From positions 1 through 44,629 of the IMG/VR virus record IMGVR_UViG_3300043621_000102: a stretch of DNA of 44,629 bases. One strand, 5' to 3'. The notes beneath the pieces are model-generated. The model ran no database searches, was not told where the DNA came from, and was given only the letters and a program-made list of their open reading frames with translations. This document shows positions 3,502-44,482 of the stretch, piece after piece. The stretch's first letter is position 1. Every line of letters starts with the position of its first letter. This DNA is from a virus. The position numbers and the translations under genes were made by a program.

Positions 3502-3502
3502 T

Positions 3503-23172: not shown

Positions 23173-23280
23173 GTGAGTGATTTCTGGATCGGCGTGATGT
23201 GCGGCGTGTTGGGGACCAGCATGTTCGCGCTGGTTCTGACTGGCTTCATTCTATCGAGGTTGCCGAGGTGGGAATCCTGA
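23173..23280 (+). CDS. Tiny single-span membrane protein
   Basis: 35 residues from GTG 23173: SDFWIGVMCGVLGTSMFALV then LTGFILSRLPRWES. It overlaps the polymerase start by 13 bases in another frame. One hydrophobic span with an Arg-rich end suggests inner-membrane insertion. Evidence is the clean spacing after the binding-protein gene (three bases) and the membrane-like composition. Confidence 0.45.
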   Translation: MSDFWIGVMCGVLGTSMFALVLTGFILSRLPRWES

Positions 23281-25310
23281 CCGACATCAACGACCTGCTG
23301 TTTCTGGATCTGGAAACACGCTCGACCGTCGATTTGCGGAAGACCGGCGCATACGTTTATGCGTCGGACCCTTCCACGACAGTCACCGTTGCCCGCCTGG
23401 CGATCGGCATGGAGGAGCCGTGGGAGTGGCGGCCGGGGCGAGAACTCCTCCCGAAATACCGCGATTACCTGATGAACAACGAAGTTGTCGCCCACAACGC
23501 GCAGTTCGAGCGGCTGCTGATCGAGGGCGTCCTCCACCCGCGCCACGGCTGGCCCCTGGTCGCGATCGATCGTTGGATCTGCACCATGGCCCGCGCCCGC
23601 GCCCAGGCCCTGCCCGCCAGCCTCGATGGGGCGGGGATGGCGCTCGGCTTGCCGATCAAGAAGGATGGCGACGGGTGGCGCCTCATGCTCCAGATGTGCA
23701 AGCCGAGGCGGATGGCGGACGGCTCGCTGGCGTGGTGGGAAGACGAGGACCGCATGGCCCGGTTGAGCGACTATTGCTCGACCGATGTGAAGGTGGAGCG
23801 TCAGGTCTGTCGCTCCACGGCCGCCTTGCCCCAGCCGGAACTAGATGTCTGGGATCTGACTGAGGCCATGAATGACAGAGGTGTGCGGTTCGATCATTCC
23901 TTTGTCCAGGCCGCGCGGATCGTCGCCGAAGAAACCCAGGCCCTGCTCGATAACGATATGCGGCTGCTGACTGTTGGCGTGGTCCGTAAGACTTCCGAGA
24001 TCGGTCTGCTCAAATCGTGGTTGATGAAGCGCGGCGTCGATCTGGCCCCACCTCCCGACCTCGCTCGCGAGGGTGAACTGCTCGATGATCTGGAAGAGGT
24101 CGAACCGGAAGAGGAGGTGATCCCTGATCTCCGCAGGAGGGATGTCCTGCGCCTGATCGCCGATCCCCGCGTGGGGTTGTTGGAGAAGAGTGTTCTCAAG
24201 ACCCGCCTGGAGGCGGGGAAGATATCGGTCAAAAAGCTCTACGCCATCCACGAGCGGTCGAACGCCGACGGCCGCGTGCGGGGTCTGCTCGGCTACCACG
24301 GGGCATCGACCGGCAGATACATCTCGCAAGGGTTGCAGGTGCAGAACTTCCCCCGCGACGTTGTCGCGGACTGGGAGGGCCACCGGGCGCTGCTCGACCA
24401 GGGCGCGGCGATGGTCGATGCCATCGCCGGCCCGCCGCTCGATGTCGTCTCGAAGATGTTGCGCGGCGCGATCATCCCCGCCGAGGGCCACGAGATCGCG
24501 GCGGGCGACTTCGCCTCGGTCGAGGCGGTGGGTGTGGCGTGGCTGGCGGGGCAGGATGATCTGGTCGAGGCGTTCCGCGCGAAGCGGAAAGTCTACGAGG
24601 AGATCGGCGCCAGGGTTTACGGCATCGATCCCGCCACCGTCACCAAGGACAGCCGCGCCCGTTTCGTCGGCAAAACATTGGTGCTTGGCTGCGGCTACCA
24701 GATGGGCTGGCATAAGTTCCGCGAGACCTGCATCGCCCAGGCGAGTGTCCTTCTCGCCCCGGAAGAGGCGGAACGCGCCGTTAACGTCTATCGCGGGACT
24801 TATGCCTGTATCCCGAAACTCTGGAACGACATGAACCAGGCGGCGATCGACGCCGTGCGTCATCCCGGTCAGGCGACGGCGGTGGCGGGCGGGCGCATTC
24901 GGTTTCGGATGGATCGCAAGTGGCTGCGGATGCGCCTGCCGAGTGGACGCTACATCTGGTATTCTCAACCCCTGATCGAAACGGGTCGTTTTGGCAACGA
25001 TTGCGTCTCGTATATGAGTGTTAATTCGCTAACAAAACGATGGGAACGCTGTCAGACCTACGGCGGGCGGCTGACGGAAAACGCCGTGCAGGGTCTGTGC
25101 AGGGATCTTCTTGTTCACGCCGCGCTGCGTCTCGAACGAGAAAACTATCGCCCATTAACCTTGGTCCATGACGAGATTATTTGCGAGCCCCAGATCGGTT
25201 TTGGGAGCGTTGAGGAGATGTGTTCTCTTATGAGCGAGTTGCCTGACTGGGCCTCGGGTTTTCCCCTGAGGGCCGAGGGCTCGCGCGGTCCGAGATATCT
25301 AAAGGGGTGA
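23268..25310 (+). CDS. Family A DNA polymerase with 3'-5' exonuclease
   Basis: 680 residues from GTG 23268-23270; an upstream in-frame start would overlap the tiny membrane gene. The exonuclease begins with LLFLDLETRST (Exo I, Asp-x-Glu). The polymerase part has GRYISQGLQVQNFPRD, motif A AAGDFASVEAVGVAWLAGQ, motif B RFVGKTLVLGCGYQMGW and motif C LTLVHDEIICE near residue 630. It is the replicative enzyme of the phage. The 3' end overlaps the ribbon-helix-helix gene on the other strand by 83 bases. Confidence 0.92.
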   Translation: MGILTDINDLLFLDLETRSTVDLRKTGAYVYASDPSTTVTVARLAIGMEEPWEWRPGRELLPKYRDYLMNNEVVAHNAQFERLLIEGVLHPRHGWPLVAIDRWICTMARARAQALPASLDGAGMALGLPIKKDGDGWRLMLQMCKPRRMADGSLAWWEDEDRMARLSDYCSTDVKVERQVCRSTAALPQPELDVWDLTEAMNDRGVRFDHSFVQAARIVAEETQALLDNDMRLLTVGVVRKTSEIGLLKSWLMKRGVDLAPPPDLAREGELLDDLEEVEPEEEVIPDLRRRDVLRLIADPRVGLLEKSVLKTRLEAGKISVKKLYAIHERSNADGRVRGLLGYHGASTGRYISQGLQVQNFPRDVVADWEGHRALLDQGAAMVDAIAGPPLDVVSKMLRGAIIPAEGHEIAAGDFASVEAVGVAWLAGQDDLVEAFRAKRKVYEEIGARVYGIDPATVTKDSRARFVGKTLVLGCGYQMGWHKFRETCIAQASVLLAPEEAERAVNVYRGTYACIPKLWNDMNQAAIDAVRHPGQATAVAGGRIRFRMDRKWLRMRLPSGRYIWYSQPLIETGRFGNDCVSYMSVNSLTKRWERCQTYGGRLTENAVQGLCRDLLVHAALRLERENYRPLTLVHDEIICEPQIGFGSVEEMCSLMSELPDWASGFPLRAEGSRGPRYLKG

Positions 25311-25528: not shown

Positions 25529-25857
25529 GGCCGGGGCAGGGCCGGGGCAGGGCCGGGGCAGGGCCGGGGCAGGGCCGGGCAGGGTTGGGTTTGGTCTGGT
25601 TCGGCGGGGTAAGCCGGGGCAGGGCCTGGTAGGGTCGGGCAAGGTCAGGTTTGGCCGGGTTCGGCAAGGCATGGCGCGGTTAGCCCTGGTGAGATTAGGC
25701 GCGGTCTGGTTGGGCAAGGCGCGGCAGGGCGCGGTTGGGTTGAGTACGGCCTGGCAGGGCCAGGCAGGCATAGGTGAGGCGCGGTAAGGCCAGGTTTGGT
25801 TTGCCAGGGTGTGGCTTGGTTTGGCCCGGCCTGGTGCGGTGCGGTTTGGTGTGGCTT
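25529..25857 (+). repeat. GGYNN pentanucleotide array 1
   Basis: The array opens with four copies of an 11-base unit GGCCGGGGCAG (25529-25572), which is GGCCG, an extra G, then GGCAG. From 25573 to 25857 there are 57 strict five-base steps; by hand count 51 carry GGC or GGT at the start and the other two positions vary freely. The few exceptions are single-base changes such as GCC or GAT, and none shifts the register. It ends 16 bases before the ATG of the Cas7-like gene, so it would be its 5' untranslated region. Frames through it are by-products of the composition. Confidence 0.85.
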
Positions 25858-25873
25858 CTTTTAGGAACGAGCA

Positions 25874-26491
25874 ATGAACAAAGTTGTCAAAGTAAATGAT
25901 GATGTAACGAATGGCGGTCAGGCGTCGGTTGAAACGGAGCTGCCCTACACGGCGACCGTGAAAATAAGAGGGACGAGTGACGTTCTGTTTCACAGATGGA
26001 ACGCTGACGCCGTCGATACCAAGGCGAAGGCGGCGAAAAACAGCGCCGCCAAGAAGACCGACGATGTCGAGTCTTATGTCTACCGGGACGAGAAGGGAAT
26101 GATTTGCATCCCAGGGGAGTATCTTCGCGGAGCGATCATTCTCGCCAGTAAGTTTCGGCAAGACCCCCGCAGCCCGCGAAAAAGCGCCATGGATTTATTC
26201 AAGGCGGCGGTTGTCTCCCTGACACCACTGGCTTCTCTGGGCACGAAATCATGGGATTACGAGGATCGTCGTCGGGTCGTTATTCAGCGTTCCGGGATCA
26301 ACAGGATCCGTCCCGCCATGCGTACTGGTTGGACGTGTGAGTTTCGTTTTCTCGTCACGCTTCCAGAATATGTCAGCCAGGATCTCCTCCTGGAGGTTAC
26401 ATCTCTCGCTGGCAGGATCGGCGGGGTTGGTGATTTTAGACCAACATATGGACGATTTGCAGTTGTCAGCTTCAAAGTTTCCGAAGCATGA
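25874..26491 (+). CDS. Cas7/RAMP-like phage protein embedded between GGYNN arrays
   Basis: 205 residues with AGGA upstream. A beta strand (YTATVKIRGTSDVLFHRW) is followed by a Lys/Ala-rich helix (VDTKAKAAKNSAAKKTDD), then ICIPGEYLRGAIILASKF, KSAMDLFKAAVVSLTPL, YEDRRRVVIQRSGI and a closing GRIGGVGDFRPTYGRFAVVS. IPGEYLRGAI recalls the IPGSSLKGA motif of Csm3/Cmr4, and the final Gly-rich loop recalls the RAMP G-loop; size and strand order also fit. Homologues occur in phages as hypothetical proteins. There is no other Cas gene here. RNA binding is therefore a hypothesis. Arrays flank it on both sides. Confidence 0.7.
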   Translation: MNKVVKVNDDVTNGGQASVETELPYTATVKIRGTSDVLFHRWNADAVDTKAKAAKNSAAKKTDDVESYVYRDEKGMICIPGEYLRGAIILASKFRQDPRSPRKSAMDLFKAAVVSLTPLASLGTKSWDYEDRRRVVIQRSGINRIRPAMRTGWTCEFRFLVTLPEYVSQDLLLEVTSLAGRIGGVGDFRPTYGRFAVVSFKVSEA

Positions 26492-26502
26492 TAAAAATAC
26501 AC

Positions 26503-27027
26503 GGCCTGGAAAGGTCTGGCCCGGTTAGGCGTGCCGGGGCCGGGTAAGGTTCGGTCCGGTTTGGTGCGGTATGGTCCGCGTTTTAACGAAACGGAACCAG
26601 TCGTTCCGTTTCTTTAAGGCGCGGTTAGCTTCGGCGTGGCTCGCCATGGCCGGCATGGGCATGATTTGCTTAGGTTGGGTCCGGCACGGTCCTATGTGGC
26701 GTGGCCTGGCGTGGTGTGGCCTGCCCCGGCATGGCGGGGTGGGGCGGGGTAAGGCACGGCTCGGTCAGGTATGGCGTGGCGGGATTCGGCTAGCCGTGGT
26801 TTGGCGCGGTGTGGCAAGGCTGGGTCAGGTGGGGTTCGGTGTGGCATGGCAAGGTGGGGTCCGCCCCGGCGTGGTTTGGCGTGGTCTGGTGTGGTTAGCC
26901 ACGGTTTGACGCGGTCCGGTGAGGTTGGGCATGGCAAGCTATGGCAAGGTGGGGTCCGCCCCGGTGTGGTGTGCTCGGGCAGGGCACGGCGTGGCAGGGT
27001 CCGCTCTGGTGGGGCAAGGTATGGTAG
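26503..27027 (+). repeat. GGYNN pentanucleotide array 2
   Basis: Starting 12 bases after the Cas7-like gene stop, 105 five-base steps run to 27027 in one unbroken register. By hand count 79 begin GGC or GGT; eight of the exceptions are the embedded hairpin, the rest are mostly one-base changes such as GCC and GCT. Some longer words recur (for example GGCAAGGTGGGGTCCGCCCC at 26848 and 26943), suggesting local duplication in multiples of five. Array 1 is in the same phase modulo five. Long frames on both strands here are artefacts. Confidence 0.85.
26588..26615 (+). terminator. Hairpin embedded in array 2 (possible terminator)
   Basis: GAAACGGAAC (26588-26597), loop CAGTC, and GTTCCGTTTC (26603-26612) form a perfect ten-base stem followed by TTT. 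The insert replaces eight pentamer positions without changing the register. It may end or protect the transcript of the Cas7-like gene; the T run is short, so termination would be weak. Confidence 0.5.
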
Positions 27028-27038
27028 GGGCCTTTGGT

Positions 27039-27230
27039 ATGATGGTCCCGGATCTCTTGAACACGTTGCGCCGCCGGATTGAGGAACTGGAGTTGCTTGT
27101 ACAGGATCTGGAGCGCCAGAATGAGTGGCTACGAACACAAACACAGAGGGAAACACACGATGAAACAATTGTTGATGACCACGGCCATCATCACCGGGGC
27201 GCTGTTTTTTCAGCCAACGGCCCGCGCTGA
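27039..27230 (+). CDS. Small coiled-coil protein
   Basis: 63 residues beginning just after array 2, with AGGGG eight or so bases upstream. The N-terminal half is a strong leucine coiled coil (PDLLNTLRRRIEELELLVQD, then LERQNEWLRTQTQ); the rest overlaps the PEP-CTERM gene in another frame and is His-rich. It may be a genuine small protein or only a leader. I recognise no family. Confidence 0.4.
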   Translation: MMVPDLLNTLRRRIEELELLVQDLERQNEWLRTQTQRETHDETIVDDHGHHHRGAVFSANGPR

Positions 27231-27903
27231 CATCATCTCGACGCTGGGTTACACGGCCAACGCCAATACCTCGGCGCTGTCGCTGATCGCGGTGCCACCT
27301 CCAGGGAACCAGCCGTTGAATACCCCCTGCCTCATCTGCGGCACGAACCAACCGCAGCAGCCGGTTGGGTTCGGCTATAACAACTACCAGCAGGGCGGCA
27401 ACCAGACGCTGTTCAGCGATTTCTCCTCGGCGACCACCACGACCCTGGGCGAAGACACGCAGGGCACGCCATATCTGGTCAGCTTCCTACGGGCGTTCCT
27501 CATCTCGCAACTGGACCTGAATGGCCAGTTGAACGTCGGCATCGACGTGAATACCGCCACGGGCGCGGGGCCTGAAGTGCTGCAACGCTTCGTCGTGCTT
27601 GATGTCGTCAACAAGACGATCCTCGCTGACTACAACCCGGCCGGCGGCACGCCGCTGCCGACCGCGAATAACGGCACCGGCTTCCCGGACTACGTGCTGA
27701 GCGGCTTCAACATCGACCGGAACGATCTGTCGCCCAACAGCCAGATCGAATTCTACGCCCGATGGAGCAACGCATCGGATGGCGCTGAGAGCTTCTTCCT
27801 GGTCCCCGTTCCAGGGCAGCAGGACGTGCCGGAGCCCGCCTCGCTGGCGGTGCTTGGTATGGGGCTGCTTGGACTCGGCATGGTGAAGCGCCGCCGGGCC
27901 TGA
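27160..27903 (+). CDS. PEP-CTERM exported protein
   Basis: 247 residues from ATG 27160-27162, with AGAGGG nine bases upstream. A signal peptide (MKQLLMTTAIITGALFFQ, then ARA cleavage) leads to a beta-rich, Thr/Asn/Gly-rich domain, and the C-terminus is a complete PEP-CTERM sorting tail: VPEPASLAVLGMGLLGLGMV followed by KRRRA. In bacteria such tails are cut by exosortase and the proteins sit in the exopolysaccharide matrix. No exosortase is in the window, so the host must supply it. It is probably a lysogeny-independent moron that alters the host surface (inference). Confidence 0.88.
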   Translation: MKQLLMTTAIITGALFFQPTARADIISTLGYTANANTSALSLIAVPPPGNQPLNTPCLICGTNQPQQPVGFGYNNYQQGGNQTLFSDFSSATTTTLGEDTQGTPYLVSFLRAFLISQLDLNGQLNVGIDVNTATGAGPEVLQRFVVLDVVNKTILADYNPAGGTPLPTANNGTGFPDYVLSGFNIDRNDLSPNSQIEFYARWSNASDGAESFFLVPVPGQQDVPEPASLAVLGMGLLGLGMVKRRRA

Positions 27904-27911
27904 CGGTACTA

Positions 27912-27953
27912 CCCTCGGCCTCTTCCATCGCACGGGAGGCCGGGGGGCTTTTT
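27912..27953 (+). terminator. Rho-independent terminator after PEP-CTERM gene
   Basis: CCCTCGGCCTC (27912-27922) pairs with GAGGCCGGGGG (27936-27946), an 11-base stem with one G-T pair, followed by GCTTTTT. It is the strongest terminator in the window and isolates the PEP-CTERM gene from the next small genes. Confidence 0.85.
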
Positions 27954-27975
27954 AACCAGACAAAAGGATAAACAG

Positions 27976-28158
27976 ATGCAATCGACAGAAACCACGATCC
28001 GTTACAGCCTCATCAGGACAGCGGGCAAAAGCGAAGACGGCCGCTACGATATTCTCCGCCACGAACCTGGTTGCACCGACGAGATCCTGGCGCGCGGAGC
28101 GACGTTCGATCACGCCACCGCGATCGTGAAGGCGCTCAACAGTGAGATGGGAACATGA
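27976..28158 (+). CDS. Small hypothetical protein
   Basis: 60 residues with AAAGGA upstream. A compact beta-then-helix sequence (TTIRYSLIRTAGKSEDGRYD, then GATFDHATAIVKALNSEMG). The stop overlaps the next start as ATGA. Function unknown; it begins a cluster of three small genes after the strong terminator. Confidence 0.6.
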   Translation: MQSTETTIRYSLIRTAGKSEDGRYDILRHEPGCTDEILARGATFDHATAIVKALNSEMGT

Positions 28159-28295
28159 ACCACTCCCTCGCCTGGCACTGGCATTTCAGACGCAGCCGCT
28201 CCCGGCTCTGGAGCGACGCCTGGGGCTGGGCCACCGACGCTACCGCCGTGGCTGCCGTGGTCGGTGTGTTCCTGTGGGTGGTGGCGACGTTATGA
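28155..28295 (+). CDS. Small membrane protein, 46 residues
   Basis: Reads MNHSLAWHWHFRRSRSRLWS, then a hydrophobic span (ATAVAAVVGVFLWVVATL). Start and stop both overlap their neighbours as ATGA. A basic aromatic N-terminus and one C-terminal span suggest an inner-membrane protein, perhaps holin-like. Confidence 0.6.
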   Translation: MNHSLAWHWHFRRSRSRLWSDAWGWATDATAVAAVVGVFLWVVATL

Positions 28296-28483: not shown

Positions 28484-30715
28484 TCCTTCGGCCATGCGCG
28501 GGATGCTGAGTTCCTGACCCGCGGGCGAGGGCGGCGGCGCCACTGGCGCCGTCTTCACCCCGCCTTGCTGGCCGAGGAAGCGGGCGGTGGCCGTGATGGA
28601 GCGCGCCCCCGGCGGCAGGCGTCCCATCTGGCGCAGGTATTGCTGTCCGTTCTCCGAGAACAGGTATTCGCCCATCCGGTTGACGTTGCGCGACGCCATC
28701 CAGTTCTGGATGTTATCGGCGGCGCGAGGGGCCGCTTCCAGACTGAGGAATTTCAACGCGCCGATCAGTTTACTCCCCGGCGTGTCCCTGGCGCGTTCCT
28801 TCAGATCGGCGGCGGAGGCCAGCCGCCCCGCCGTGGCGCTGTTGGCGCCGCGCGCGCGGGCGACATCCTCCAGCGTCCCCATGAAGTTCTCGAAGCCCTG
28901 GAACGTCTGAGGGTCCATGGCCGCCCGCATCGAGGCTTGCTTATTCGGATCGCTCCACAACTGACGGCGTAGCATCCCCGGATTGAACCCTTCCTGGGAC
29001 TGTACCGTCTTGTCGAACAGGTCTTGCATGTAGGCCCGCGTGCCCGCGTTCCATTCGGCTTCTTTTCCCGCTTTGATGAAGGACTCCCGCGCCGCTCCGA
29101 TGGCGCGCGGATTATTGCTCTCGAAAAGCGGGGAGACGATCGCGCGCACGCGCTCCGTCCCCAGATCGGCCTTTCCGACGCCGGTGATGTCCCCCAGGCG
29201 GGCCGCCTCCCGCAACCCCGGCGCGGCGGTGTCGCGCGCCGTCTCGTAGGTTGGGTAGACCGCGTCGAGATGGGTGCGGAGATCGGTCCTCAGGGCATCA
29301 ATGGAATCCGCCGTCGAGTTCTGTCCCGCGAGCTTCGCCGCGCCGTGCGCCTCGTCGAGCTTTATCTTGGCCAGGTTCCAGATATCGAAGTTGGGCGTGG
29401 TCGGCGGCGGCAGGCGGAACCTGTTTTCGTATTCCTTGCTCGCCGCCTCCAGCGCGGTTTTCACCGCCGGGACATTCGCGAGTGTATCCAGGTCGGGGGA
29501 TGTCTGTGATCCGCCCGCCCTGGCCGCGTCGTAGTAGGGCTTCGCCTGGGCGTTCGCCTGTTGCCGCACGATCCGTTCCGCGTCCGTCGCGCCTTGCTGA
29601 AACTGGAGCGCCGCGTCGGTCTTGTTGGCCTGCGGCGACACGCGGCCAGCCGTATCGTCGAAGGCGCTGATGACCTTGGGCTGTTGCCTCTCATAAAATT
29701 GCTTCGCGATATCCGCCCCCGCCGGCCCCGCGCTGCCGGAGGTGTAGGCGTCTTCCATGCCCAGCAACGACGGCAGGCCGCTCGCCTGCCCCGGTGTCAA
29801 CGGCACGCCTTGCGCGTCCGCCCGCGCGTAGCGATCGGCGATGCGCTGCTGGATGACCGGATCGCGCAGCATCCTGAGGTCGTAGTCGCTGGCGCCCATG
29901 GGATTGGGCCGGAAGCCGCGCACCACGCCCACCCCCAGAAGCTGCCCCAGGGCCGCCTCGAGCCCCTCGTGGGCGGTCTGCTTCCAGTTGTAGTTGACCG
30001 CGCGCGGCCCCGCCTGGGGCTTGTCGGGAGGCGCCGGGATACCGGGGTCGAGCTGCTGCGCGAACGACTGGCGCGCGGCGTCGCCGATCGCCGCGCCAAC
30101 ACCCGCCGCCACGGGGCCGGCGACGAGGGACGTGGGCGCGGCGATGGAGCCGCCGATGATGGCCCCACCCGCCGGGAGGCCGGGGCCGGCCAGCCCCGCG
30201 AGACGCTCCACCGGATGGGTGGGGATCAGGGATTTCGGCTGGTTGACGGTGGGCGAGTAAGGCGGCGGGTCGATGTAGGAGGCTTTCCCGTCGTCGCCCA
30301 CGACGGCGAGGCGTCCGTTGACGCCGGGGAAGACCCGCGATTCCGCCTCCAGTTGCGGCAGGTTCGGGAACAACTGCCGCGCGACGATCCGCCGCCGTTG
30401 CTCCGGGTTTTGATCCGATGCCATGCTCCCGGCAGCCAGCACGCCCGGCGCCGCCGGTGTGTCTTCACGGATGGGCGTGCCCATGGACCGCCCCACCGGG
30501 GTCGTGGGGTTGGTCAGGATGGGTCCGCCGTTCTGGTAGGGGACTTTTAGCGGGCTGGTTTCCTGGGCGGGCGCCTCAGGGGTGGCGGAAGCGGTGGCGT
30601 TCGCCAGGGCGCGCGCCTGGGTGTCTTCGTCCCGTGGAAAGGCCACGCCGCCGGAGGGGCTGGCCTCGCGGAAAGCATCCACCGCCGTGCGGGTATCCTC
30701 CTGGGCTTCGGCCAT
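28466..30715 (-). CDS. Internal virion / DNA-ejection protein
   Basis: 749 residues. The N-terminal 120 are disordered. A glycine-zipper membrane-like segment follows near residues 180-225 (GGAIIGGSIAAPTSL, then GPVAAGVGAAIGDAARQS), then long helical stretches rich in Ala/Gln/Asp (DAALQFQQGATDAERIVRQQ, NSTADSIDALRTDLRTHLDA). No enzymatic motif is visible. Such proteins in podoviruses are packaged inside the head and form the trans-envelope channel. The gene is coupled to the upstream M15 gene by a TAATG junction. Confidence 0.65.
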   Translation of the reverse strand: MAEAQEDTRTAVDAFREASPSGGVAFPRDEDTQARALANATASATPEAPAQETSPLKVPYQNGGPILTNPTTPVGRSMGTPIREDTPAAPGVLAAGSMASDQNPEQRRRIVARQLFPNLPQLEAESRVFPGVNGRLAVVGDDGKASYIDPPPYSPTVNQPKSLIPTHPVERLAGLAGPGLPAGGAIIGGSIAAPTSLVAGPVAAGVGAAIGDAARQSFAQQLDPGIPAPPDKPQAGPRAVNYNWKQTAHEGLEAALGQLLGVGVVRGFRPNPMGASDYDLRMLRDPVIQQRIADRYARADAQGVPLTPGQASGLPSLLGMEDAYTSGSAGPAGADIAKQFYERQQPKVISAFDDTAGRVSPQANKTDAALQFQQGATDAERIVRQQANAQAKPYYDAARAGGSQTSPDLDTLANVPAVKTALEAASKEYENRFRLPPPTTPNFDIWNLAKIKLDEAHGAAKLAGQNSTADSIDALRTDLRTHLDAVYPTYETARDTAAPGLREAARLGDITGVGKADLGTERVRAIVSPLFESNNPRAIGAARESFIKAGKEAEWNAGTRAYMQDLFDKTVQSQEGFNPGMLRRQLWSDPNKQASMRAAMDPQTFQGFENFMGTLEDVARARGANSATAGRLASAADLKERARDTPGSKLIGALKFLSLEAAPRAADNIQNWMASRNVNRMGEYLFSENGQQYLRQMGRLPPGARSITATARFLGQQGGVKTAPVAPPPSPAGQELSIPRMAEGLLGLR

Positions 30716-33024
30716 TACTCCGCCACCATGATCTGCTGCGTCAGTTCACCTTTTTCGTTTGGCAGCCACGCCGTGTAGGGCCGTCCGCTCTGGGTGTTGG
30801 TCTTCAACCACTCCCTGGCGGCGGCATAGCTGCCGGGGCCTTCAAACTTCGGCGCCGCCGGGACGACGGGGCCAAGCCCTCCCTGGTTGATACCGTTTTC
30901 ATCGAGCCTGCGCGGCGCGTTGATGGCGTCTTTCAGGTGAACAAGATCATGCGCGGGCTTACCCGTCTTCGGATCGATCCGTTTAAAGTATGAATCGGTG
31001 AACTCTTGCGCCTCGACAACACGATCGGCGATGTTTTGCAGGAACGCCACGGCTTTCGCGCGGCCTTCCGGTGATTGCAGTAACTGAGGCATTACCGTCT
31101 TGAACGACGCCAGGTCCTTGTCCGACATCGATCCAGAGCCAGTCACCCGAAGCTGCCCCGCCAGATGATTGGTGAGGCCCATGAATATCGAGACGTTGTC
31201 GGCGGTTCCGGGACTGACGATATTAGCTCTCTCAAGCAAGGAGGTCACCTGCGGATATTGCCCCATGAGAGAGGACAACGAGCCTCCTGGCGGGAGGTTT
31301 TGCATGAGAGCCGGAAGCTGTCGTAACTGATCCGAAACCGGCTGCATGGCGGCGGCGGCCGTGGCGTGGTCCTGCATCCGCTTCTCGTCGCCGCGCATGG
31401 CGATCCTGGCGCCCTCTTTGTCTTTATCGAAATCAGCGTTGATCCGCGCCAGATCCACGGCCTGCGAGTGCGCCAGATTGGCCTGCGCCGCCGCCTTGTA
31501 GGCATCGACCTCTTTTTCGTAACGCGGGCGAATCGCGTTGTCCTGGGTCTCATTGTATTTGGTGATCGCGATAGCGGCTTTCTGGGCCTTCTCCTGCGCC
31601 GCCATCTGGATCTTGGCTTTGATCTCCTCCCGCGCGGAGAGGATTTCCTGGACCGATTTCTCATCGGGTTTACGCGCCGCCGAGACCGCGAGGGCTCGCT
31701 GCTCTATCGCCTTGGCCTCACTGGCGAAGGCCCTCTGCTGCGCCGGTGTCAGGTTCGGATTGAAGTCCTCGGTAGGCGGCGGTGGGACATACTCCCGCGC
31801 GCGATACTCGGAATAGGTGCCGGGATGCGTGATGAGACCGTCACCGGCCTTGATGGGTGGTAGTTGCGTGGTGGAGGGCTGCTGCCCTCCCGCCTGCGCG
31901 GTGACGACCGCGCCTGGTTGCGCCATCGGGGATGACCCCGGCCCCGGCGCCAGCGTGTCGGGATCGGCGCCGGCCCCAACCATGCCAGCTTTGATGTCGG
32001 CGACATCGGCGGCTGAAGCAGCGGCGGTGGCGGGCGGCAAGGTCGGGATGACGGTTCCGGTTGGTACGACATCACCGCCGGCCGCCTGGACGGCGCCAGC
32101 TTCCGGCGTGGCGTCGGCGCGTGGTCGCGGCACCTCGAAGTGCATCGGATCGCGTGTCTTGCCCGACCAGTCGCCGCCCCAGACCAGGCCATGTTTGGCG
32201 GCCAGTTGGCGCGCCAGATCAGGCGGGATATCGGAGGCGCTCCCGCCTCGCGGGTTCTTCGCCCAGTTGATGTCGATCGCGGTGCCGAACGCATGGTTGG
32301 ATGGTGTGTGCGTCCCGGCGATGAAACGCTTGTTGTAGCCGCCCGAGGTGGCCGGATCGAGATTGTAGCCGCTCGCCTCCAGGTCATTAACAAGGCCCTG
32401 GAACTTCTCGGCGGCCGTGGCCGCGACCTGAAACTTCGCGCCGCCTGGGGCCACGACGGGGGCCAGCTCCGGCGTCGCGGGCAGGGCATCGCTCGTCGTG
32501 GTTGTTCCGGCCTTTCCGATATCGGTATTGGTCGAGTCGGGCTTCAGTAGCCCCCGCTGCCGCGCCGCCGCGCGCTGCTCCTCTTGCAGTTGCAGATACG
32601 GCAGCGCCTCTTTCAGTCGCGCGATCTGGTCCTGCTGCTGCTCATGGGCCAGTTGTTGCGCGGCGTGATGCTGTGCCGCCGAGACCGCCTGGGCGCGGCC
32701 GAGATTGCCGCGCGCCGCGTCCAGCCCCTGGCCGAGGATCGATCCGAAAGTGTGTGGGGTGGTGGACCAGTCGGAGCCTTGCAGCATCCGCGCGCCCAGC
32801 GCGCCAAGGGCGCCGAGACCACCCTGTTCGCGTTCGGCCGTCGTTCCATACTGGCTGCCGCCGCCGAGGCCCTCGCCGAGGAGCGAGAGGATGCCACGCC
32901 CCTCGCGCGAGGAGGGGCCGGTGTTGGGATCAACGGCGGGTTGCGCCGTCCTGCCCGCCAGCAGCTGGTTGATGATCTGGGAGAGTTGCTGGTCGGACGC
33001 GGTGGATGTGGTTTCTTCCGCCAT
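30715..33024 (-). CDS. Internal virion protein with M15-type peptidase domain
   Basis: 769 residues. Near residues 205-300 is a VanY/M15 metallopeptidase: FQGLVNDLEASGYNLDPATS, then SNHAFGTAIDINWAKNP (zinc His and Asp) and DPMHFEV (final His). It should cut peptidoglycan peptides during DNA entry. The rest is a Pro/Ala-rich spacer and a long C-terminal coiled coil (EEIKAKIQMAAQEKAQKAAI and ARINADFDKDKEGARIAM). The fusion of a wall peptidase to a long ejection protein explains the lack of a separate endolysin nearby, although a lysis role is unproven. Confidence 0.78.
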   Translation of the reverse strand: MAEETTSTASDQQLSQIINQLLAGRTAQPAVDPNTGPSSREGRGILSLLGEGLGGGSQYGTTAEREQGGLGALGALGARMLQGSDWSTTPHTFGSILGQGLDAARGNLGRAQAVSAAQHHAAQQLAHEQQQDQIARLKEALPYLQLQEEQRAAARQRGLLKPDSTNTDIGKAGTTTTSDALPATPELAPVVAPGGAKFQVAATAAEKFQGLVNDLEASGYNLDPATSGGYNKRFIAGTHTPSNHAFGTAIDINWAKNPRGGSASDIPPDLARQLAAKHGLVWGGDWSGKTRDPMHFEVPRPRADATPEAGAVQAAGGDVVPTGTVIPTLPPATAAASAADVADIKAGMVGAGADPDTLAPGPGSSPMAQPGAVVTAQAGGQQPSTTQLPPIKAGDGLITHPGTYSEYRAREYVPPPPTEDFNPNLTPAQQRAFASEAKAIEQRALAVSAARKPDEKSVQEILSAREEIKAKIQMAAQEKAQKAAIAITKYNETQDNAIRPRYEKEVDAYKAAAQANLAHSQAVDLARINADFDKDKEGARIAMRGDEKRMQDHATAAAAMQPVSDQLRQLPALMQNLPPGGSLSSLMGQYPQVTSLLERANIVSPGTADNVSIFMGLTNHLAGQLRVTGSGSMSDKDLASFKTVMPQLLQSPEGRAKAVAFLQNIADRVVEAQEFTDSYFKRIDPKTGKPAHDLVHLKDAINAPRRLDENGINQGGLGPVVPAAPKFEGPGSYAAAREWLKTNTQSGRPYTAWLPNEKGELTQQIMVAE

Positions 33025-36965: not shown

Positions 36966-38039
36966 TTAGTGCGGGCCGCGTGAGGGCGCCGAGAGCATCC
37001 TGGCGCGTGGCGTCTCGAACAGCGCCCGCAGCGCGGCGATCTCCTCGCGCAGGTTCTCGATCTCCTGGTGCGTGTCGGGAGAGGTTGGCGCGGTGGCGAT
37101 ATCGGCGGCGGTGACGATCGCCGCTTCGGAACCGGCGTAGATGATCTTGGTGACGACCAGGAACGGGTTCAACACGGTCAGTGGCACGCCGCCGCCACCG
37201 AGGTTGAAAGCGTGCGAGTGACCGTATTCCCAGTTGATATAATGCTGATGGTCGCCGACAGCGGAGATGTTGTGACCGTGCGAGCCGTCGCCGACGATGG
37301 CCAACGAAAGGCTGCCGATGGCCGCCGTCGTGATGTTGTGCTGATGCGCGCCGTTGATCGAGGTGTTGAAGTTCTGAAATCCGAACACGGTCCCCGAGGC
37401 GACGGTGACGCCCCCGCCCGTGACGCCGACGCCTTCGTTGGCCATGGTGTAGGTGTGGTTATGGTCGCCCTGAAGGTTGGTCGTGCCCGTGTGGATGTGG
37501 TTCGGCAGCGATGAGCCGGCGTGGGAGTGAAAGCCCTGCACGTCCGCCGTGTGCCCATGAGCCCCCGCCGCCACTGTTTGAATGCCATGGTTATGGTCGC
37601 CGGCGAGACTGGTGGTGATCGCGTAGTTGGGCAGGTTGTTCTGCGTGACCGGGCTGTAGACAAAGCCCTGCATCTGGGTGAAGCCGAACGCATAGGGGAG
37701 GCCGCCCTGGTCCGTCACCGTGCCGGGGCCGAGCAGCGAACGGCCCGCCGTGTTGGGCAGGCGGAACGTGGTGGAGCCATCGCCGCTGCCCCAGTAGACG
37801 CCGATGACCGCGAACAGTTTTGAGTAGGTCGTTCTGCTCACGGTTCTACCATCGCAGATGAGCCAGCCACTGGGCGCGGTCGGGCCGGCGAAATCGGCGA
37901 TGATGCCGACCTGGCAAAACTGGCTGACGAACTGGTCGATGATGTCCCAGTTAACGTTAGTTTTACTACCCCACGTATCCCGAGATGCGCCAATTTCCGG
38001 TTTTGTTAGCGCCAGGTTGGTAGTATAACTATCAGCCAT
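36966..38039 (-). CDS. Tail fibre with phage collar domain
   Basis: 357 residues. The start (NLALTKPEIGASRDTWGSKT, NVNWDIIDQ) is a common fibre anchor. Residues of about 45-105 are a phage tail collar domain: FAGPTAPSGWLICDGRTVSR, then LFAVIGVYWGSGDGSTTFRL and PNTAGRSLLG. The rest has many His-Gly-His repeats (GDHNHGIQTV, GAHGHTADVQG, GAHQHNI), which in T4 gp12-like fibres bind metal along the fibre axis. It is a receptor-binding or short tail fibre. Confidence 0.82.
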   Translation of the reverse strand: MADSYTTNLALTKPEIGASRDTWGSKTNVNWDIIDQFVSQFCQVGIIADFAGPTAPSGWLICDGRTVSRTTYSKLFAVIGVYWGSGDGSTTFRLPNTAGRSLLGPGTVTDQGGLPYAFGFTQMQGFVYSPVTQNNLPNYAITTSLAGDHNHGIQTVAAGAHGHTADVQGFHSHAGSSLPNHIHTGTTNLQGDHNHTYTMANEGVGVTGGGVTVASGTVFGFQNFNTSINGAHQHNITTAAIGSLSLAIVGDGSHGHNISAVGDHQHYINWEYGHSHAFNLGGGGVPLTVLNPFLVVTKIIYAGSEAAIVTAADIATAPTSPDTHQEIENLREEIAALRALFETPRARMLSAPSRGPH

Positions 38040-38493
38040 TTGATGCGGCCCCCTCCGCTTTCAGACGATCCCGCCTTCTCGCGTTGCTGTCCAGAATACA
38101 CTGCTTACACGAACGACTAATCGTGTTGTCATGTTTATGTAGATAAGTATTCTCTGTCGTATATTCGTGCCCGCGCCGACAATGCGTCTTATTGGCGTTA
38201 CCGTGCCTGCCCTTGGCTACCATGTCCAAGATATTATCGACCTGCGCTCCAATAAACAGATGGTCGGGATTTACACACGAAGGAACATCACACCGATGAC
38301 AGACAACCAACCCTTTGGGGATGGCGCCATTGGCTTCCGCCCAGATAACGCGGTGCATCGATATATGCTTGTTGGCGACAATCATCTTTGGATAGCCGCG
38401 ACCATCTACCTGACCATCCCATAACCAGCAGCCGGTATTAGGCTCTGGCACGGCATGGTCGCGCCAGTCGCGGCTGTAGATGGTCCGCGACAT
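38032..38493 (-). CDS. HNH homing endonuclease A
   Basis: 153 residues. GCWLWDGQVDGRGYPKM, HRVIWAEANGAIPKGLVVCH and the core CHRCDVPSCVNPDHLFIG give an HNH site with zinc-binding Cys, followed by the NUMOD-like THCRRGHEYTTENTYLH segment. It overlaps the collar-fibre gene by eight bases. Such free-standing HNH genes are mobile and cut alleles that lack them. Its relative at 44015-44482 shares the core motif but little else. Confidence 0.85.
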   Translation of the reverse strand: MSRTIYSRDWRDHAVPEPNTGCWLWDGQVDGRGYPKMIVANKHISMHRVIWAEANGAIPKGLVVCHRCDVPSCVNPDHLFIGAQVDNILDMVAKGRHGNANKTHCRRGHEYTTENTYLHKHDNTISRSCKQCILDSNARRRDRLKAEGAASNG

Positions 38494-39378: not shown

Positions 39379-41084
39379 GAGGTTGAATCCGTGACGAGCC
39401 CGTAAGCCGCCAGTGCGGTCAGCAACGATGCGAGCGCGGCGTTTCCCGCCTTCGCGCCTGTCACGGTTGGCTTCGCGATGGGATTGCCCGTGAGGCCCAG
39501 CGTTGGCGTCGGCCCGTTGCCGTTCCAACTGATGAAACTGGTTCCGGAATAACCCGCCCGCACAGGCCCCGCGCCCGGGGCCCCGGCCACTCCATTGACC
39601 GAAACAGGACGTTGCGTGACATCCGGCTCGTTGGAAATGTCCGTCGAAAACAACTCGCTGTAGCGCGGTGTCGTGAACCCGACACCGTAATTCGTCGTCA
39701 CGTTGATGTCGCTGAACTGATGACCATAACCGGCGACCGATATCAGTGGCGCCCCGGCCGCCTGCGCGCCATCGAACGTCAGACCGCTAAACTCGCAATC
39801 CTGAAAACTGCCGAGGTAGCCGACAATCCGCGTGCTCGCGGCGATCGATCCAGACGCCGAAGCGTTGGCACGCGCGTCACATGTCACGACAGCCGCGTAA
39901 ATACCGGTCGTGCTGACGACGCTAAGTATCTTGTAAGCGCCTGTCAGCGTCAGGCCGTTGGCGACAAGAGGCCCACCCGCGCCCGCGTCGATGTTAACAT
40001 AGTTTCCAACACCGCTGTCCGTCCCGGATGCGAAAGTCACCGTCAGGACATTGCTGCCGGAAGCCGTCGCGACTTTGTTCGCCCCCACCTCCGGCGCGAA
40101 GTTGCTAAAGAACCCGCCAAAGATGACGGGATTGTTCCACGCCGCGCCGTCCATCGCGACACAACTCACGTTGTGGGCTTTGATGCGCCCGCCGAGACCA
40201 CGACCGACGATGAACTTGTTCGTGGCGCCGCCGGTCGCGACGATCATCACGTTTTCCATCAGCACGTCCGAAACAACGGAGCCGTCGCCGCCGCTGTCCA
40301 GAAAGAACCCAATACCATTATTCAGCCAAATATTGATGTTCGTGGCCACGTATTGCCACGACCTGCCGATACTGGCGGTGGTGCCGATGCCTTGCAGGTT
40401 GAACGCGCCGCCATTACCGCCACCCGGAAACATAACGACATCGATGTCACTGACCTTGACCCTGGTCGTTCCTGCCCAGCAATCAAGTATCTGCATGACG
40501 TTATCGCCGATACAGTCTCGCATCGTCACTCTGTCGCAGCTAATGCAGCGAACGCCCGTGCATGACGCGCTCGTGGTCGCCCACATCCGTAGTTCCGCCA
40601 CATCCAGATTCTTCACGAACAGGAACGACGCGGTATTCGCCGCCTGCGTCGTGTAGTCGAACCCCAGGCCCTTGATTGCTATGTCGGTATCGTAGACGCC
40701 ACCGGGTGGCGTGGTTGGGCCTGTATATGGAATGGTTGCCGAATAAAGATAACCGGCAAAAACAGTTGGCGCGTCGCCGGAATATCCCGTGAGCCCGTTC
40801 GGCCTGATGATGGAAACCTCGCGCCCCGCTCCGGTGACACGGGTATGGCTGGGCAGCACGATGGGAAGCCCCGAAACCTTATACGTGCCCGCCGGGAAGA
40901 ACACTTCCTTGCCGCCCGATCCGATCGCGGCGCGGATCGCCGCCGTATCATCCGTCACGCCATCGCCGGTCGCGCCGAAGCTCAGGACATTTGTCGAACC
41001 CGACAGCGCGCCCGCGTTGGCGATAGCCTCGTTCAGGTCGGTGGCCAACAGAGCATCGCCGATCGCCCAGGGGTATCCAGTCAT
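39375..41084 (-). CDS. Tailspike with pectate-lyase-like beta-helix
   Basis: 569 residues. A 25-residue anchor is followed by NVLSFGATGDGVTDDTAAIR and GKEVFFPAGTYKVSGLPIVL, the classic entry to the right-handed beta-helix of Pectate_lyase_3. The helix continues for about 350 residues (CTGVRCISCDRVTMRDCIGD, GGRIKAHNVSCVAMDGAAWN), then a beta-rich C-terminal part. It should bind and perhaps depolymerise host capsule or O-antigen. Catalytic residues cannot be assigned by eye. The other haplotype has a different protein behind the same anchor (1-872). Confidence 0.8.
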   Translation of the reverse strand: MTGYPWAIGDALLATDLNEAIANAGALSGSTNVLSFGATGDGVTDDTAAIRAAIGSGGKEVFFPAGTYKVSGLPIVLPSHTRVTGAGREVSIIRPNGLTGYSGDAPTVFAGYLYSATIPYTGPTTPPGGVYDTDIAIKGLGFDYTTQAANTASFLFVKNLDVAELRMWATTSASCTGVRCISCDRVTMRDCIGDNVMQILDCWAGTTRVKVSDIDVVMFPGGGNGGAFNLQGIGTTASIGRSWQYVATNINIWLNNGIGFFLDSGGDGSVVSDVLMENVMIVATGGATNKFIVGRGLGGRIKAHNVSCVAMDGAAWNNPVIFGGFFSNFAPEVGANKVATASGSNVLTVTFASGTDSGVGNYVNIDAGAGGPLVANGLTLTGAYKILSVVSTTGIYAAVVTCDARANASASGSIAASTRIVGYLGSFQDCEFSGLTFDGAQAAGAPLISVAGYGHQFSDINVTTNYGVGFTTPRYSELFSTDISNEPDVTQRPVSVNGVAGAPGAGPVRAGYSGTSFISWNGNGPTPTLGLTGNPIAKPTVTGAKAGNAALASLLTALAAYGLVTDSTS

Positions 41085-42421
41085 GTCGTCACCTGCTGCA
41101 TCTCGGCGTCGGACAACACGCGGGGCCAGTATTGAACCCGGCGGATGATGCCGCTCATGCTTTCAATCGCGACGCCTGGATTAGCTCCACCGATACCGAC
41201 CCCCGCTGTCGCGAGTGTCGCGAACCCTGTCTGTGCTCCTGTTCCAATACCGCCACCGTTAAGGCAGATTTTGCCGGTGCCGCCGCCTTGAACAGACACG
41301 CCTTTTGACACCGCACCAAGAACAACCGTGTTTATGGTGTTAATCTGGCCACCGCCGGAGGAAATAAAGAACCCGGAACTGTTCACCCATAACGGGTCTT
41401 CACCAGTCCCGCCGTGGTTGCCGATAACGCGAGGGCTCGTAAGGCCGAAAGCTGTATTATCGATGAACTCGGCGAACCATGTGCCGCCGGGAGACGCGAA
41501 CCAGGGAGCCATGTTCGCGGGGGCGATGAAGCAGTTATCGAAAGCCCGCGTGACCGGCGACGAGACCGTGTAGATCACGGATGTCGGGAAGGTCCCCGGT
41601 TCCACCTGGCCACCCCAGGCGTAAATCGTCTGCGCGGGTGTACTGGCCTGCGTCGCATCGCGTAAATCGGTGCCTGTTTCAAAAAACCACGGCGCCGCCG
41701 TCAGGTTTGGCGTGACGAAGGAAAACCGCTGCCATGCCGTGGTCAGTATCGCGGCGGCTTTGTAATATGTCGCGCCATCGGGTGTCGCGCAGATGTAGAC
41801 CCGTTCGCCACCCGCGTTACCACGCAACCAGAGACTAAATGAATAAGCGGCGGCACTTAATGTCGCCGACTGGGAGAACACACTGAAAGTCCCGGCGCCC
41901 GAAACAGCGGGGTAAACCACCCTCGCGGCGGTGAGCGTGCCGTCCGGCGCCGTCACCTGATTGGCCGTCACGACGGGTTGCACGCTACCGAACAACCCCC
42001 ACAGGGCAATATTGCCGCTGTTTAGAATGACATTCGTCCGCGCCTCCTCGATCAGCAGCCCGCGCGCTTCCCATCTGGGTTGATTGACCGCCGCCGTCTG
42101 GATCACGCCGGATGCGTCGGTGTATGTCGCGGTCGAGGCGCGGGTGAAGGTGACGCCGGGGGGCATGTTTCCGGAGGACATGAAATCGAGCGCCAGCGTG
42201 GCGCCAGGAGGGCCACCGCCGCCCGTGATGCCGGCGCCACTGTATTGTTGAGCCACCTGACGGCTGAAATACTTGCACCAGCCTTGTGGACTGACGGGGC
42301 CGATGACCTTGCCGCAGGCGCGAGGGGCGACGAAGAAGCGGCAGTATCCGCACTTCTCCCGCCCGCCCGCGTCGGTGTAGCGCGCGGCGCTTTTAGAGAC
42401 GCGATGAACGACGAAGCTCAT
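41081..42421 (-). CDS. Tail fibre: HiPIP-like N-terminus plus lectin-like domain, copy 2
   Basis: 446 residues. The N-terminal 130 residues are almost identical to the copy at 869-2245, including Cys24, Cys27, Cys36 and Cys49. After RGLLIEEARTN the sequences diverge to a different binding domain ending VQYWPRVLSDAEMQ. It overlaps the adaptor and tailspike genes by four bases on each side. This is a textbook mosaic receptor-binding gene. Confidence 0.75.
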   Translation of the reverse strand: MSFVVHRVSKSAARYTDAGGREKCGYCRFFVAPRACGKVIGPVSPQGWCKYFSRQVAQQYSGAGITGGGGPPGATLALDFMSSGNMPPGVTFTRASTATYTDASGVIQTAAVNQPRWEARGLLIEEARTNVILNSGNIALWGLFGSVQPVVTANQVTAPDGTLTAARVVYPAVSGAGTFSVFSQSATLSAAAYSFSLWLRGNAGGERVYICATPDGATYYKAAAILTTAWQRFSFVTPNLTAAPWFFETGTDLRDATQASTPAQTIYAWGGQVEPGTFPTSVIYTVSSPVTRAFDNCFIAPANMAPWFASPGGTWFAEFIDNTAFGLTSPRVIGNHGGTGEDPLWVNSSGFFISSGGGQINTINTVVLGAVSKGVSVQGGGTGKICLNGGGIGTGAQTGFATLATAGVGIGGANPGVAIESMSGIIRRVQYWPRVLSDAEMQQVTT

Positions 42422-43086
42422 CCAAACGATACCAGTTCAGATCGTAACGGTGCGCCACCGTAATCAGATTGTTGCTTCCAGAGGTTGGCCCTGGTCACCA
42501 CCTGCTGGAACTGCGCGTCGGCCTGGGCCGCGCGATCGTCGTCCAGCTCGAACATGGCGCCATACTTACAAAGACCGAACAGGTAGACGCCGTAGAGGGC
42601 TTCCAGGACCGTGTTGGTGTCGGACGGCAGATCCAGGTGCTTTGGCTTCGCATACCAACCCATGATGACCTGCTGCCAAAGATGCGTCGGGTCAGGCGGA
42701 TTGGGGATGATCGGGTGCGGGAGGAACTCGATGCAGTTCCCCTTCAGCCGATACGCGGTGCAGACCTGTCCAACAGCCCCTACGACCGCGCCCTCTTGCC
42801 ACGCACTGGACTGTCGCCCCACCCAGTGCCCTGACCATTCATCCTTCAGCTTCAGCAGCTCGCCCGATATGGCGTCCCTGATCGATTCCATCTGGGCGAA
42901 GTCATCGGGAAGCGTGATCTCGGCGGCGTCGATGTCCTGCTCGCCGAAGGTGACCATGCACCTGGCGCGCAGGGTCTCGGCGATTTCCGTTTCGACCATC
43001 AGCACCCAGCCAGGGATCAGGCTGGCCAAATCCCTACGATTCAGCCAGTTCTGAACATCGTCGATGAGTTGCTGGTAAGAGGCCAC
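42418..43086 (-). CDS. SU10-type head-tail adaptor protein, copy 2
   Basis: 222 residues, homologous to 2245-2910. The first 40 residues are identical; the centre differs (FGEQDIDAAEITLPDDFAQM here against SGTQPIDSAYISLPADFATM) with conserved WSGHWVGRQSSAWQEGAVVG. The C-terminus keeps the DDDRAAQADAQFQQVVTRAN helix. As a copy of one structural ring protein, it argues for two haplotypes rather than two genes in one virion. Confidence 0.75.
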   Translation of the reverse strand: MASYQQLIDDVQNWLNRRDLASLIPGWVLMVETEIAETLRARCMVTFGEQDIDAAEITLPDDFAQMESIRDAISGELLKLKDEWSGHWVGRQSSAWQEGAVVGAVGQVCTAYRLKGNCIEFLPHPIIPNPPDPTHLWQQVIMGWYAKPKHLDLPSDTNTVLEALYGVYLFGLCKYGAMFELDDDRAAQADAQFQQVVTRANLWKQQSDYGGAPLRSELVSFG

Positions 43087-43698
43087 CTACTTCTTGTCGT
43101 TCTTCTTGTTGGCCTTCTTGTCGTCATCCTTGTCGTCATCGTCGTCGGTGACGGCCGTTCGCGGCGGCGTGGTCGAGGTGGACTGCTGCGGGGCGGGATG
43201 CAGACCCCCTGCTACCGGCGGGTCGTTCTCGCCGGGGGCCGGGCGATGTTGGCCCGTGCCGCGCGCGGTCGCGTCCGCGGGTGGGGTCGGATCGAACACC
43301 GGATTGCCGGGGGACTGGACGCCATCGGCGGTGTGGAAAGGCTGGTGGAGAGACTCTTCGGCGATCGTCCCCACCCGGATCCGCTCCTCCGCCGCCGCCA
43401 TCGCGGCCGCCGCGGGGTCGTCGGCGTCAGGATAGAGCTTGCCCAGGAGAGAGCGGTCGAAGCCGTCCACCAGGACGGGTTTCAACGGGCCAAGGGGTTT
43501 GATCTCGGTCATGCCGTCCTCGGTGCCGGGCAGCATCCCGATGCCGGCGAGCGGCACCGTGCCGACGCCCGCCGTGCTGCCGGGTGGCATGATGCTGCCG
43601 CGGTTCATGTTGGGAGTGGTGGCGGCGTCGGGGCCGATCCCCGGTGTGCGCCGCATCGGCGCCGGGGGTGGTGTGGTGGTCGAGGTTCCACTGGCCAT
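43087..43698 (-). CDS. Pro/Thr-rich low-complexity virion-region protein, copy 2
   Basis: 203 residues, nearly identical to 2911-3501 apart from small insertions (DAATTPNMNRG and a longer Asp/Lys tail). Its GGAAGG ribosome site lies upstream of the same ATG, which supports the start chosen for copy 1. Confidence 0.68.
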   Translation of the reverse strand: MASGTSTTTPPPAPMRRTPGIGPDAATTPNMNRGSIMPPGSTAGVGTVPLAGIGMLPGTEDGMTEIKPLGPLKPVLVDGFDRSLLGKLYPDADDPAAAAMAAAEERIRVGTIAEESLHQPFHTADGVQSPGNPVFDPTPPADATARGTGQHRPAPGENDPPVAGGLHPAPQQSTSTTPPRTAVTDDDDDKDDDKKANKKNDKK

Positions 43699-44015
43699 TA
43701 GAGTTTCCTTCCGTCATCGGTTCTGAACAGGCGGCATTCGCGACTGTCCAGAACGAGGTTCAGCATTTTCTGATCTTCGGTAACCCCGAGTTTTCGCCAC
43801 TGGTTCCAGGTCACCAACGGAACCCGCGCCACGTGCGTCCAACTCTGCTTGCGCGCGTTGTGCGGGTCGAAGTTCGACGCGATGGTTTTGGCGCTCTCCA
43901 CGATCGCCCTGGTATCCTGCGAGTGAACGAACAGCAGCGTGCCGTCGCTCTCTCGCTCCAGTTCAGTGTGGCGAAGCGTCGTGGGGTTGTGGCTCTCGTA
44001 GAGAAGGGCGCCCAT
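43698..44015 (-). CDS. Small conserved protein downstream of capsid, copy 2
   Basis: 105 residues, homologous to 3503-3811 with the same ordered pattern (GALLYESHNPTTLRHTEL, LLFVHSQDTRAIVESAKTIA, HVARVPLVTWNQWRKLGV). The ATG overlaps the HNH stop as TAATG, the junction that in copy 1 belongs to the capsid stop. This shows that the HNH gene was inserted cleanly between capsid and this gene. Confidence 0.72.
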   Translation of the reverse strand: MGALLYESHNPTTLRHTELERESDGTLLFVHSQDTRAIVESAKTIASNFDPHNARKQSWTHVARVPLVTWNQWRKLGVTEDQKMLNLVLDSRECRLFRTDDGRKL

Positions 44016-44482
44016 TAGGCTTTCTTCCGGTAGTAGAAGGCAAGCGCCCGCTCGTTAGAACATGTTTTGCACGAGCGCATACCACGGTAGAGGTAGGTGT
44101 TCTCAGGCGTGTACTCATGCCCCGAGGGGCAATGCGTCTTCACGGCGTTCAGAGAGGCACGGCCCCTGAACCGGCCCTTGGCCACCATGTCAGTGACATT
44201 GTCCCGTTGCGTCCCCAGGAACAGGTGATCTGGATTGCAGCAGGAAGGCACGTCACATCGATGACAAACACGAAGGCCGTCAGAGATCGGACCAAAGAAC
44301 TCTTCCCAGGCAAGGCGATGGGTTTTGACGGTTTTTCCTTTTCGTCCGCCAATCCTGACGTTGCCATAGCCGTCACTGTTAAGTGACCCACTAAATAGCC
44401 AGCAGTCAGTATCAACGTCCCTTACGAGACGTTCCCGCCAAGGTATCGGTGCTTTTCCCATCTCGGCAGTGTGTATCATCAT
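44015..44482 (-). CDS. HNH homing endonuclease B
   Basis: 155 residues. DTDCWLFSGSLNSDGYGNVR, then HRLAWEEFFGPISDGLRVCH and CHRCDVPSCCNPDHLFLG form the HNH core, with the following THCPSGHEYTPENTYLYRG segment. It occupies the capsid-downstream junction in this copy and is absent from the matching junction at 3811. The start may be ATG 44480 or a few codons downstream. Confidence 0.85.
   Translation of the reverse strand: MMIHTAEMGKAPIPWRERLVRDVDTDCWLFSGSLNSDGYGNVRIGGRKGKTVKTHRLAWEEFFGPISDGLRVCHRCDVPSCCNPDHLFLGTQRDNVTDMVAKGRFRGRASLNAVKTHCPSGHEYTPENTYLYRGMRSCKTCSNERALAFYYRKKA

Follow-up and report, generated by a model that had tools for sequence, protein, structure and literature searches.

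Background

Phage outer-membrane morons and exclusion proteins, such as Lom and Bor of lambda, Cor of phi80 and Llp of T5, are accessory and change the surface of the host. So far, PEP-CTERM proteins have been treated as belonging to bacteria and linked to exopolysaccharide (EPS) and biofilm. According to Haft et al. 2006 (PMC1569441), PEP-CTERM is always accompanied by an exosortase homologue, almost every substrate carries a signal peptide, and the hosts all possess an outer membrane and genes for EPS. We found no paper on phage-encoded PEP-CTERM proteins in the open-access literature searched, beyond a passing mention, in one report, of the exosortase-interaction family TIGR03118, which is placed there among horizontally acquired cellular proteins in virus contigs from Yellowstone (PMC11003980).

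Here we examine a gene for such a protein in a virus record from IMG/VR that is 44,629 bases long, the whole of which is referred to as the window. Proteins of this kind are known. That phages own them, how broad the family is and that its members exchange tails all appear to be undescribed in the open-access literature searched. Genes and proteins that carry a C-terminal sorting-type tail are called tagged below.

Results

Architecture of the tagged gene

The 247-aa protein is a PEP-CTERM protein by sequence criteria (Table 1). A sequence-only reading of the window had described a signal peptide and a complete PEP-CTERM tail, and both stand. Judged by eye, the N-terminus (MKQLLMTTAIITGALFFQPTARA, followed by D at the cleavage site) is a Sec-type signal peptide, within which A21 and A23 are almost invariant in an alignment of 56 relatives. 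The C-terminus (DVPEPASLAVLGMGLLGLGMVKRRRA) matches PF07589 at residues 222-245 over 24 of 24 profile positions (28.7 bits against a cut-off of 20.7, E = 1.3e-6), and this is the only match to that model in the whole record; the protein also exceeds the cut-off of the NCBIfam model TIGR02595 (21.5 bits against 16). The protein scores below the cut-off of every full-length NCBIfam PEP-CTERM family (PepA, THxN, EDSAP-1 and others), the best score being 37.8 bits against a cut-off of 85, and an NCBIfam search with the tail removed gave no match. C-terminal processing and a location at the cell surface or in the EPS layer are predicted from this architecture.

The ribosome-binding site and the strong terminator that the same reading had assigned to the gene are likewise borne out. 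Relatives have an A/G-rich site upstream of their start codons, in the same position as AGAGGGA, and the terminator hairpin has a folding energy of -25.0 kcal/mol (z = -2.96, with one of 200 shuffles equally good); it was missed in a simple scan because its loop is longer than 8 nt. The stretch 26500-28200 showed no promoter of the sigma-70 type.

Table 1. Features of the tagged gene and its conserved neighbourhood in the window
Feature	Position	Strand	Details and evidence
Phage PEP-CTERM protein gene	27160..27903	+	247 aa; ATG at 27160, stop 27901-27903; ORF, Pfam, NCBIfam, IMG/VR relatives
Shine-Dalgarno-like AGAGGGA	27145..27151	+	8 nt between its end and ATG; from sequence
Signal peptide, residues 1-23	27160..27228	+	Probable cleavage after ARA; by eye, A21/A23 conservation
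Mature core, residues 24-215	27229..27804	+	Beta-sandwich (modelled); invariant CxICG, NNGTGFPD, DGxxSFF; alignments, AlphaFold2, dN/dS
PEP-CTERM sorting tail VPEPASLAVLGMGLLGLGMVKRRRA	27823..27900	+	Motif, hydrophobic helix (228-246 in model) and basic end; PF07589 match above cut-off at 27823-27894
Rho-independent terminator	27912..27953	+	Hairpin 27912-27946, T-run TTTTT 27949-27953; folding energy
DNA polymerase A	23199..25310	+	Upstream anchor of conserved neighbourhood; PF00476, phrog_17; cluster 5 upstream in L002-L006, L013
Small conserved ORF directly 3' of tagged gene	27976..28158	+	Cluster 12; behind tagged gene in L002-L006
Large protein, convergent late/tail block	30715..33024	-	Endolysin-like stretch 242-327; phrog_1512; cluster 14 in relatives

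Phage context

The window encodes an SU10-type major capsid protein together with a portal, a terminase and DNA polymerase A (Pfam, PHROG), and the virus is a soil-type bacterial virus. The tagged gene lies well inside the contig, has a GC content of 62.5% against 63.2% for the window, and ends a plus-strand block with replication genes that faces a minus-strand tail block. We found that polymerase A, the tagged gene, the small ORF and the tail block follow one another in this order in five related contigs (L002-L006) and largely in a sixth (L013). Given this shared neighbourhood, the phage-like GC content and the conservation of the core, for which pairwise dN/dS (omega) is about 0.01-0.2, the gene is not a host fragment or contaminant, in agreement with its initial description as a phage gene.

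Several other features of the window were observed. Between the polymerase and the tagged gene, an ORF at 25874-26491 matches phrog_4652, of unknown function (E = 2.2e-16). Degenerate GGYNN arrays, with GG at each five bases, occupy 25539-25882 and 26474-27047, just upstream of the tagged gene, and give rise to long spurious low-complexity ORFs; comparable GG arrays are present in L034, L124, L134, L136, L154, L166 and L243. A link between these GG-rich pentamer arrays and tagged genes was rejected, as few loci have arrays and their distance is inconsistent. The window contains two copies of a block of structural genes (1893-3268 and 42069-43459, about 40.18 kb apart, with 77-94% identity in gap-free stretches), and there are two further duplicated pairs (869-2245 with 41081-42421, and 3503-3811 with 43698-44015). 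Joining of strain variants at the ends of a genome that is circular or terminally redundant is one possible cause; a true duplication is another. Two related ORFs at 38032-38493 and 44015-44482 appear, by sequence judgement, to be HNH-type endonuclease-like, and one of them lies next to one copy of the structural-gene block.

A widespread virus family

The tagged gene had been taken as a single curiosity; we found instead that it is a member of a widespread, maintained virus family with a repeatedly exchanged tail. A scan with the whole protein recovered 11 loci at 73-95% identity, a profile scan of IMG/VR gave 176 confirmed stretches encoding relatives, and a wider core profile raised this to 205. 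A check for host homologues, which had been proposed at the outset, came back empty: no relatives were found in INPHARED named phages, PLSDB plasmids or GTDB genomes, the GTDB scans being made with short peptide patterns that reach close relatives only, so that distant bacterial or prophage homologues could escape them. A search of another tagged family against named phages, and searches for the host by means of tail peptides and of tagged proteins in plasmids, likewise gave no match.

The exosortase domain PF09721 was found in none of the 36 phage records with relatives. A host enzyme would therefore be required, which fits the need for a host exosortase noted in the sequence-only reading.

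A conserved core

The middle region is predicted to have no transmembrane segments, and AlphaFold2 models the core alone as a beta-sandwich (pLDDT 85.7, pTM 0.86). The signal peptide and tail mostly change faster than the core, whose low dN/dS indicates a maintained function. Searches of the core against PHROG and PDB sequences returned no homologue of known function, and fold searches with both the full and the core-only models returned only a common beta-sandwich arrangement, with nothing significant. The best structural match was to an enzyme domain from A. muciniphila (8pxu; Z 7.0-7.1, rmsd 3.3-3.4, 115-118 aligned), legume lectins scored Z of about 5, and Foldseek gave no match with E < 0.001. 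The likeness of the modelled core to lectin and carbohydrate-binding sandwiches is weak and within noise. A relationship between the core and another tagged family, the members of which end in DGxDSF, was considered and rejected (hhalign probability 3.7%).

Exchange of tails on the core

All 92 distinct full-length members have a motif, a hydrophobic stretch and a basic end at the C-terminus. When sorted by regular-expression classes defined in this analysis, 47 of these tails are VPGP, 21 VPLPA, 17 PEP and seven PEPxxWA. Among 56 members searched with curated models at E up to 0.05, 25 match PF07589, 15 VPLPA-CTERM and seven PEPxxWA. The VPGP tail, the commonest in the family, matches no NCBIfam model in the five members tested, and is called a putative sorting tail here by its architecture only.

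A maximum-likelihood tree of 56 cores, built with the tail columns removed, requires at least ten changes of tail type; the minimum numbers of changes forced by well-supported branches are six for VPGP, four each for VPLPA and PEPxxWA, and three for PEP. Such swaps on a conserved core are expected if the sorting step matters and host enzymes differ. In one relative (L020, 1157-1930) a PEPxxWA tail that exceeds its cut-off comes after a VPGPTVG stretch; in this tail (LVAVPGPTVGAVPEPATWAMMLLGF...RKRR) the PEPxxWA part is seemingly joined behind the remnant of a VPGP tail. Judged by its sequence, the arrangement is as expected of what tail replacement would leave.

Other tagged proteins and the terminase-side slot

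At least 179 places in virus contigs match DNA patterns of the VPGP tail or of a strict PEP tail. Among the matches listed, 177 of 179 lie 12-60 aa from an ORF stop, all with a basic end; at least about 26 unrelated cores bear these tails, and at least 11 cores, that of the window's family included, were found in more than one contig. The VPGP tail in particular is present on many unrelated cores in virus contigs.

The gene neighbourhoods of the family differ between phage groups. In about 19 family contigs the large terminase subunit is directly followed by the tagged gene, after which come protease/capsid and portal genes. In one of these (L024) only 27 nt separate the terminase, which ends at 2115, from the tagged gene, which starts at 2143, and joint transcription with the terminase is therefore likely. 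Six further contigs (L178, L187, L205, L087, L130 and L164) have, behind the terminase, a tagged protein that shows no BLAST similarity to the window's family. By gene order, the slot behind the terminase is an accessory-gene position with cargo in a putative late operon. The position in the window, at the end of an early cluster, and the terminase-side position imply different predicted timing of expression.

Additional tagged proteins were seen in several contigs. A second PEP-CTERM or VPLPA protein with a different core adjoins the family member in L007 (3-422), L008 (9225-10004), L047/L048 (10847-11554), L065 (3380-4102), L078 (3441-4169) and L080 (9180-9929). The L178 contig, which has terminase and portal genes, encodes two VPGP-tagged proteins (3011-3688 on the minus strand and 8245-9045 on the plus strand), and one of these two genes sits between terminase and portal.

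Discussion

The best explanation of these observations, which we consider somewhat more likely than not, is that the tagged gene is an accessory, moron-type phage gene, the product of which would be exported by the Sec pathway, displayed by way of the host exosortase, and may mask the surface against further adsorption. In its sequence context the gene behaves like a moron, with neighbourhoods that vary between phage groups and a slot that unrelated tagged genes also use. It would be translated in the infected cell and its product exported by Sec, with removal of the signal peptide, leaving a beta-sandwich in the periplasm that is held by the C-terminal tail; these steps, and the presence of a predicted sorting signal, follow from the sequence. 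The host exosortase would then recognise and cut the PEP-CTERM tail and pass the domain to the outer surface or the EPS layer, as we infer from what is known in bacteria and from the recurrent swapping of tails while the core stays constant. The displayed domain might finally mask or modify a receptor or the matrix, such that other virions would not bind to the infected cell or, later, to its debris; this benefit to the phage is a guess guided by the known phage outer-membrane morons. The interpretation given in the sequence-only reading is supported in part: the gene belongs to the phage and a role for the host exosortase fits, and remodelling of the capsule, a block to superinfection or altered aggregation may follow. 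Export and exosortase-type sorting of the protein are highly probable in our judgement. As to purpose, surface masking or exclusion is our tentative first choice, and other changes of the surface come close to an even prospect.

The product might instead be a lysogenic-conversion factor, expressed from a prophage and placed by exosortase, which alters the adhesion or biofilm of the living host in the manner of lambda Lom or Bor. The tail and fold would suit an EPS matrix, unrelated tagged proteins occupy the same slot, and an integrase is encoded in four of 37 records with the family. However, the window and the 32 other records have none (fragments may lack it), and the genes placed in the late head module beside the terminase, in about 19 contigs, would normally be silent in a lysogen. 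We regard lysogenic conversion as unlikely, because integrase occurs in just four of the 37 records and not in the window.

It is improbable that the protein is a membrane-anchored lysis or envelope protein, in which the tail is merely a C-terminal transmembrane anchor on which exosortase does not act. A signal peptide combined with a hydrophobic C-terminal helix and a basic end is also what a type I membrane protein would have, and the VPGP tail is without a match to any sorting model; but the tails of other members match several curated sorting models, motif included, whereas a plain anchor needs no conserved boundary motif, and the position of the gene is variable and not tied to lysis genes. 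The swapping of tail type as though matched to the host enzyme, and the two tagged proteins in some phages, could also be read in terms of a decoy, an abundant phage substrate that occupies the host exosortase or the matrix and strips the host of its own PEP-CTERM proteins. The strong purifying selection on the core would be needless for a pure tail decoy, and makes this quite improbable. A virion component, as the adjoining head genes in one phage group might suggest, is very improbable, since export by Sec would keep the protein away from heads, which assemble in the cytoplasm, and the gene is away from the head genes in the window group. A passenger host gene, whether taken up by the phage or added to the contig through mis-assembly, is the least credible reading even though reports of PEP-CTERM proteins otherwise come from bacteria (PMC1569441), given the neighbourhood shared by several related contigs, the many members in virus contigs, the absence of finds in bacterial genomes (scans for close relatives), the phage-matched GC and an omega far below 1.

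The reading as an accessory gene for a displayed protein has wider consequences. If cores are owned by viruses and their tails swapped, phages would be reshaping the surface of their hosts by means of a sorting enzyme that belongs to the host, and the type of tail would be a readable clue to the host and to host switching. We see an even chance that many uncultured soil-type phages have a repertoire of display proteins (at least about 26 cores) that use host exosortase-type sorting, with tails exchanged between hosts that have different enzymes and VPGP as an undescribed signal. The virus set offers many natural combinations of core and tail for work on exosortase specificity, the uncatalogued VPGP tail included.

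Comparison with known systems

Substrates of the bacterial PEP-CTERM/exosortase (EpsH) system (PF07589, TIGR02595) resemble the phage protein in their signal peptide, their diverse, homologue-free middle, and their motif, hydrophobic helix and basic end. Unlike these substrates, the family described here is encoded by phages without exosortase and combines one core with four alternative tails; and whereas bacterial PEP-CTERM substrates have single-gene operons, part of the phage family is in a late operon. The flocculation protein PepA (NF033554) and other full-length NCBIfam PEP-CTERM families are alike in the tail, but whole-protein matches are weak and below cut-off, and the similarity is gone once the tail is removed. 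The TIGR03118 proteins are likewise exosortase-type domains in virus contigs but belong to a different family (PMC11003980). The likeness to Lom and Bor, Cor and Llp lies in an accessory phage gene with a product predicted for the envelope; however, those proteins are outer-membrane proteins or lipoproteins, whereas the window protein has an exosortase-type tail.
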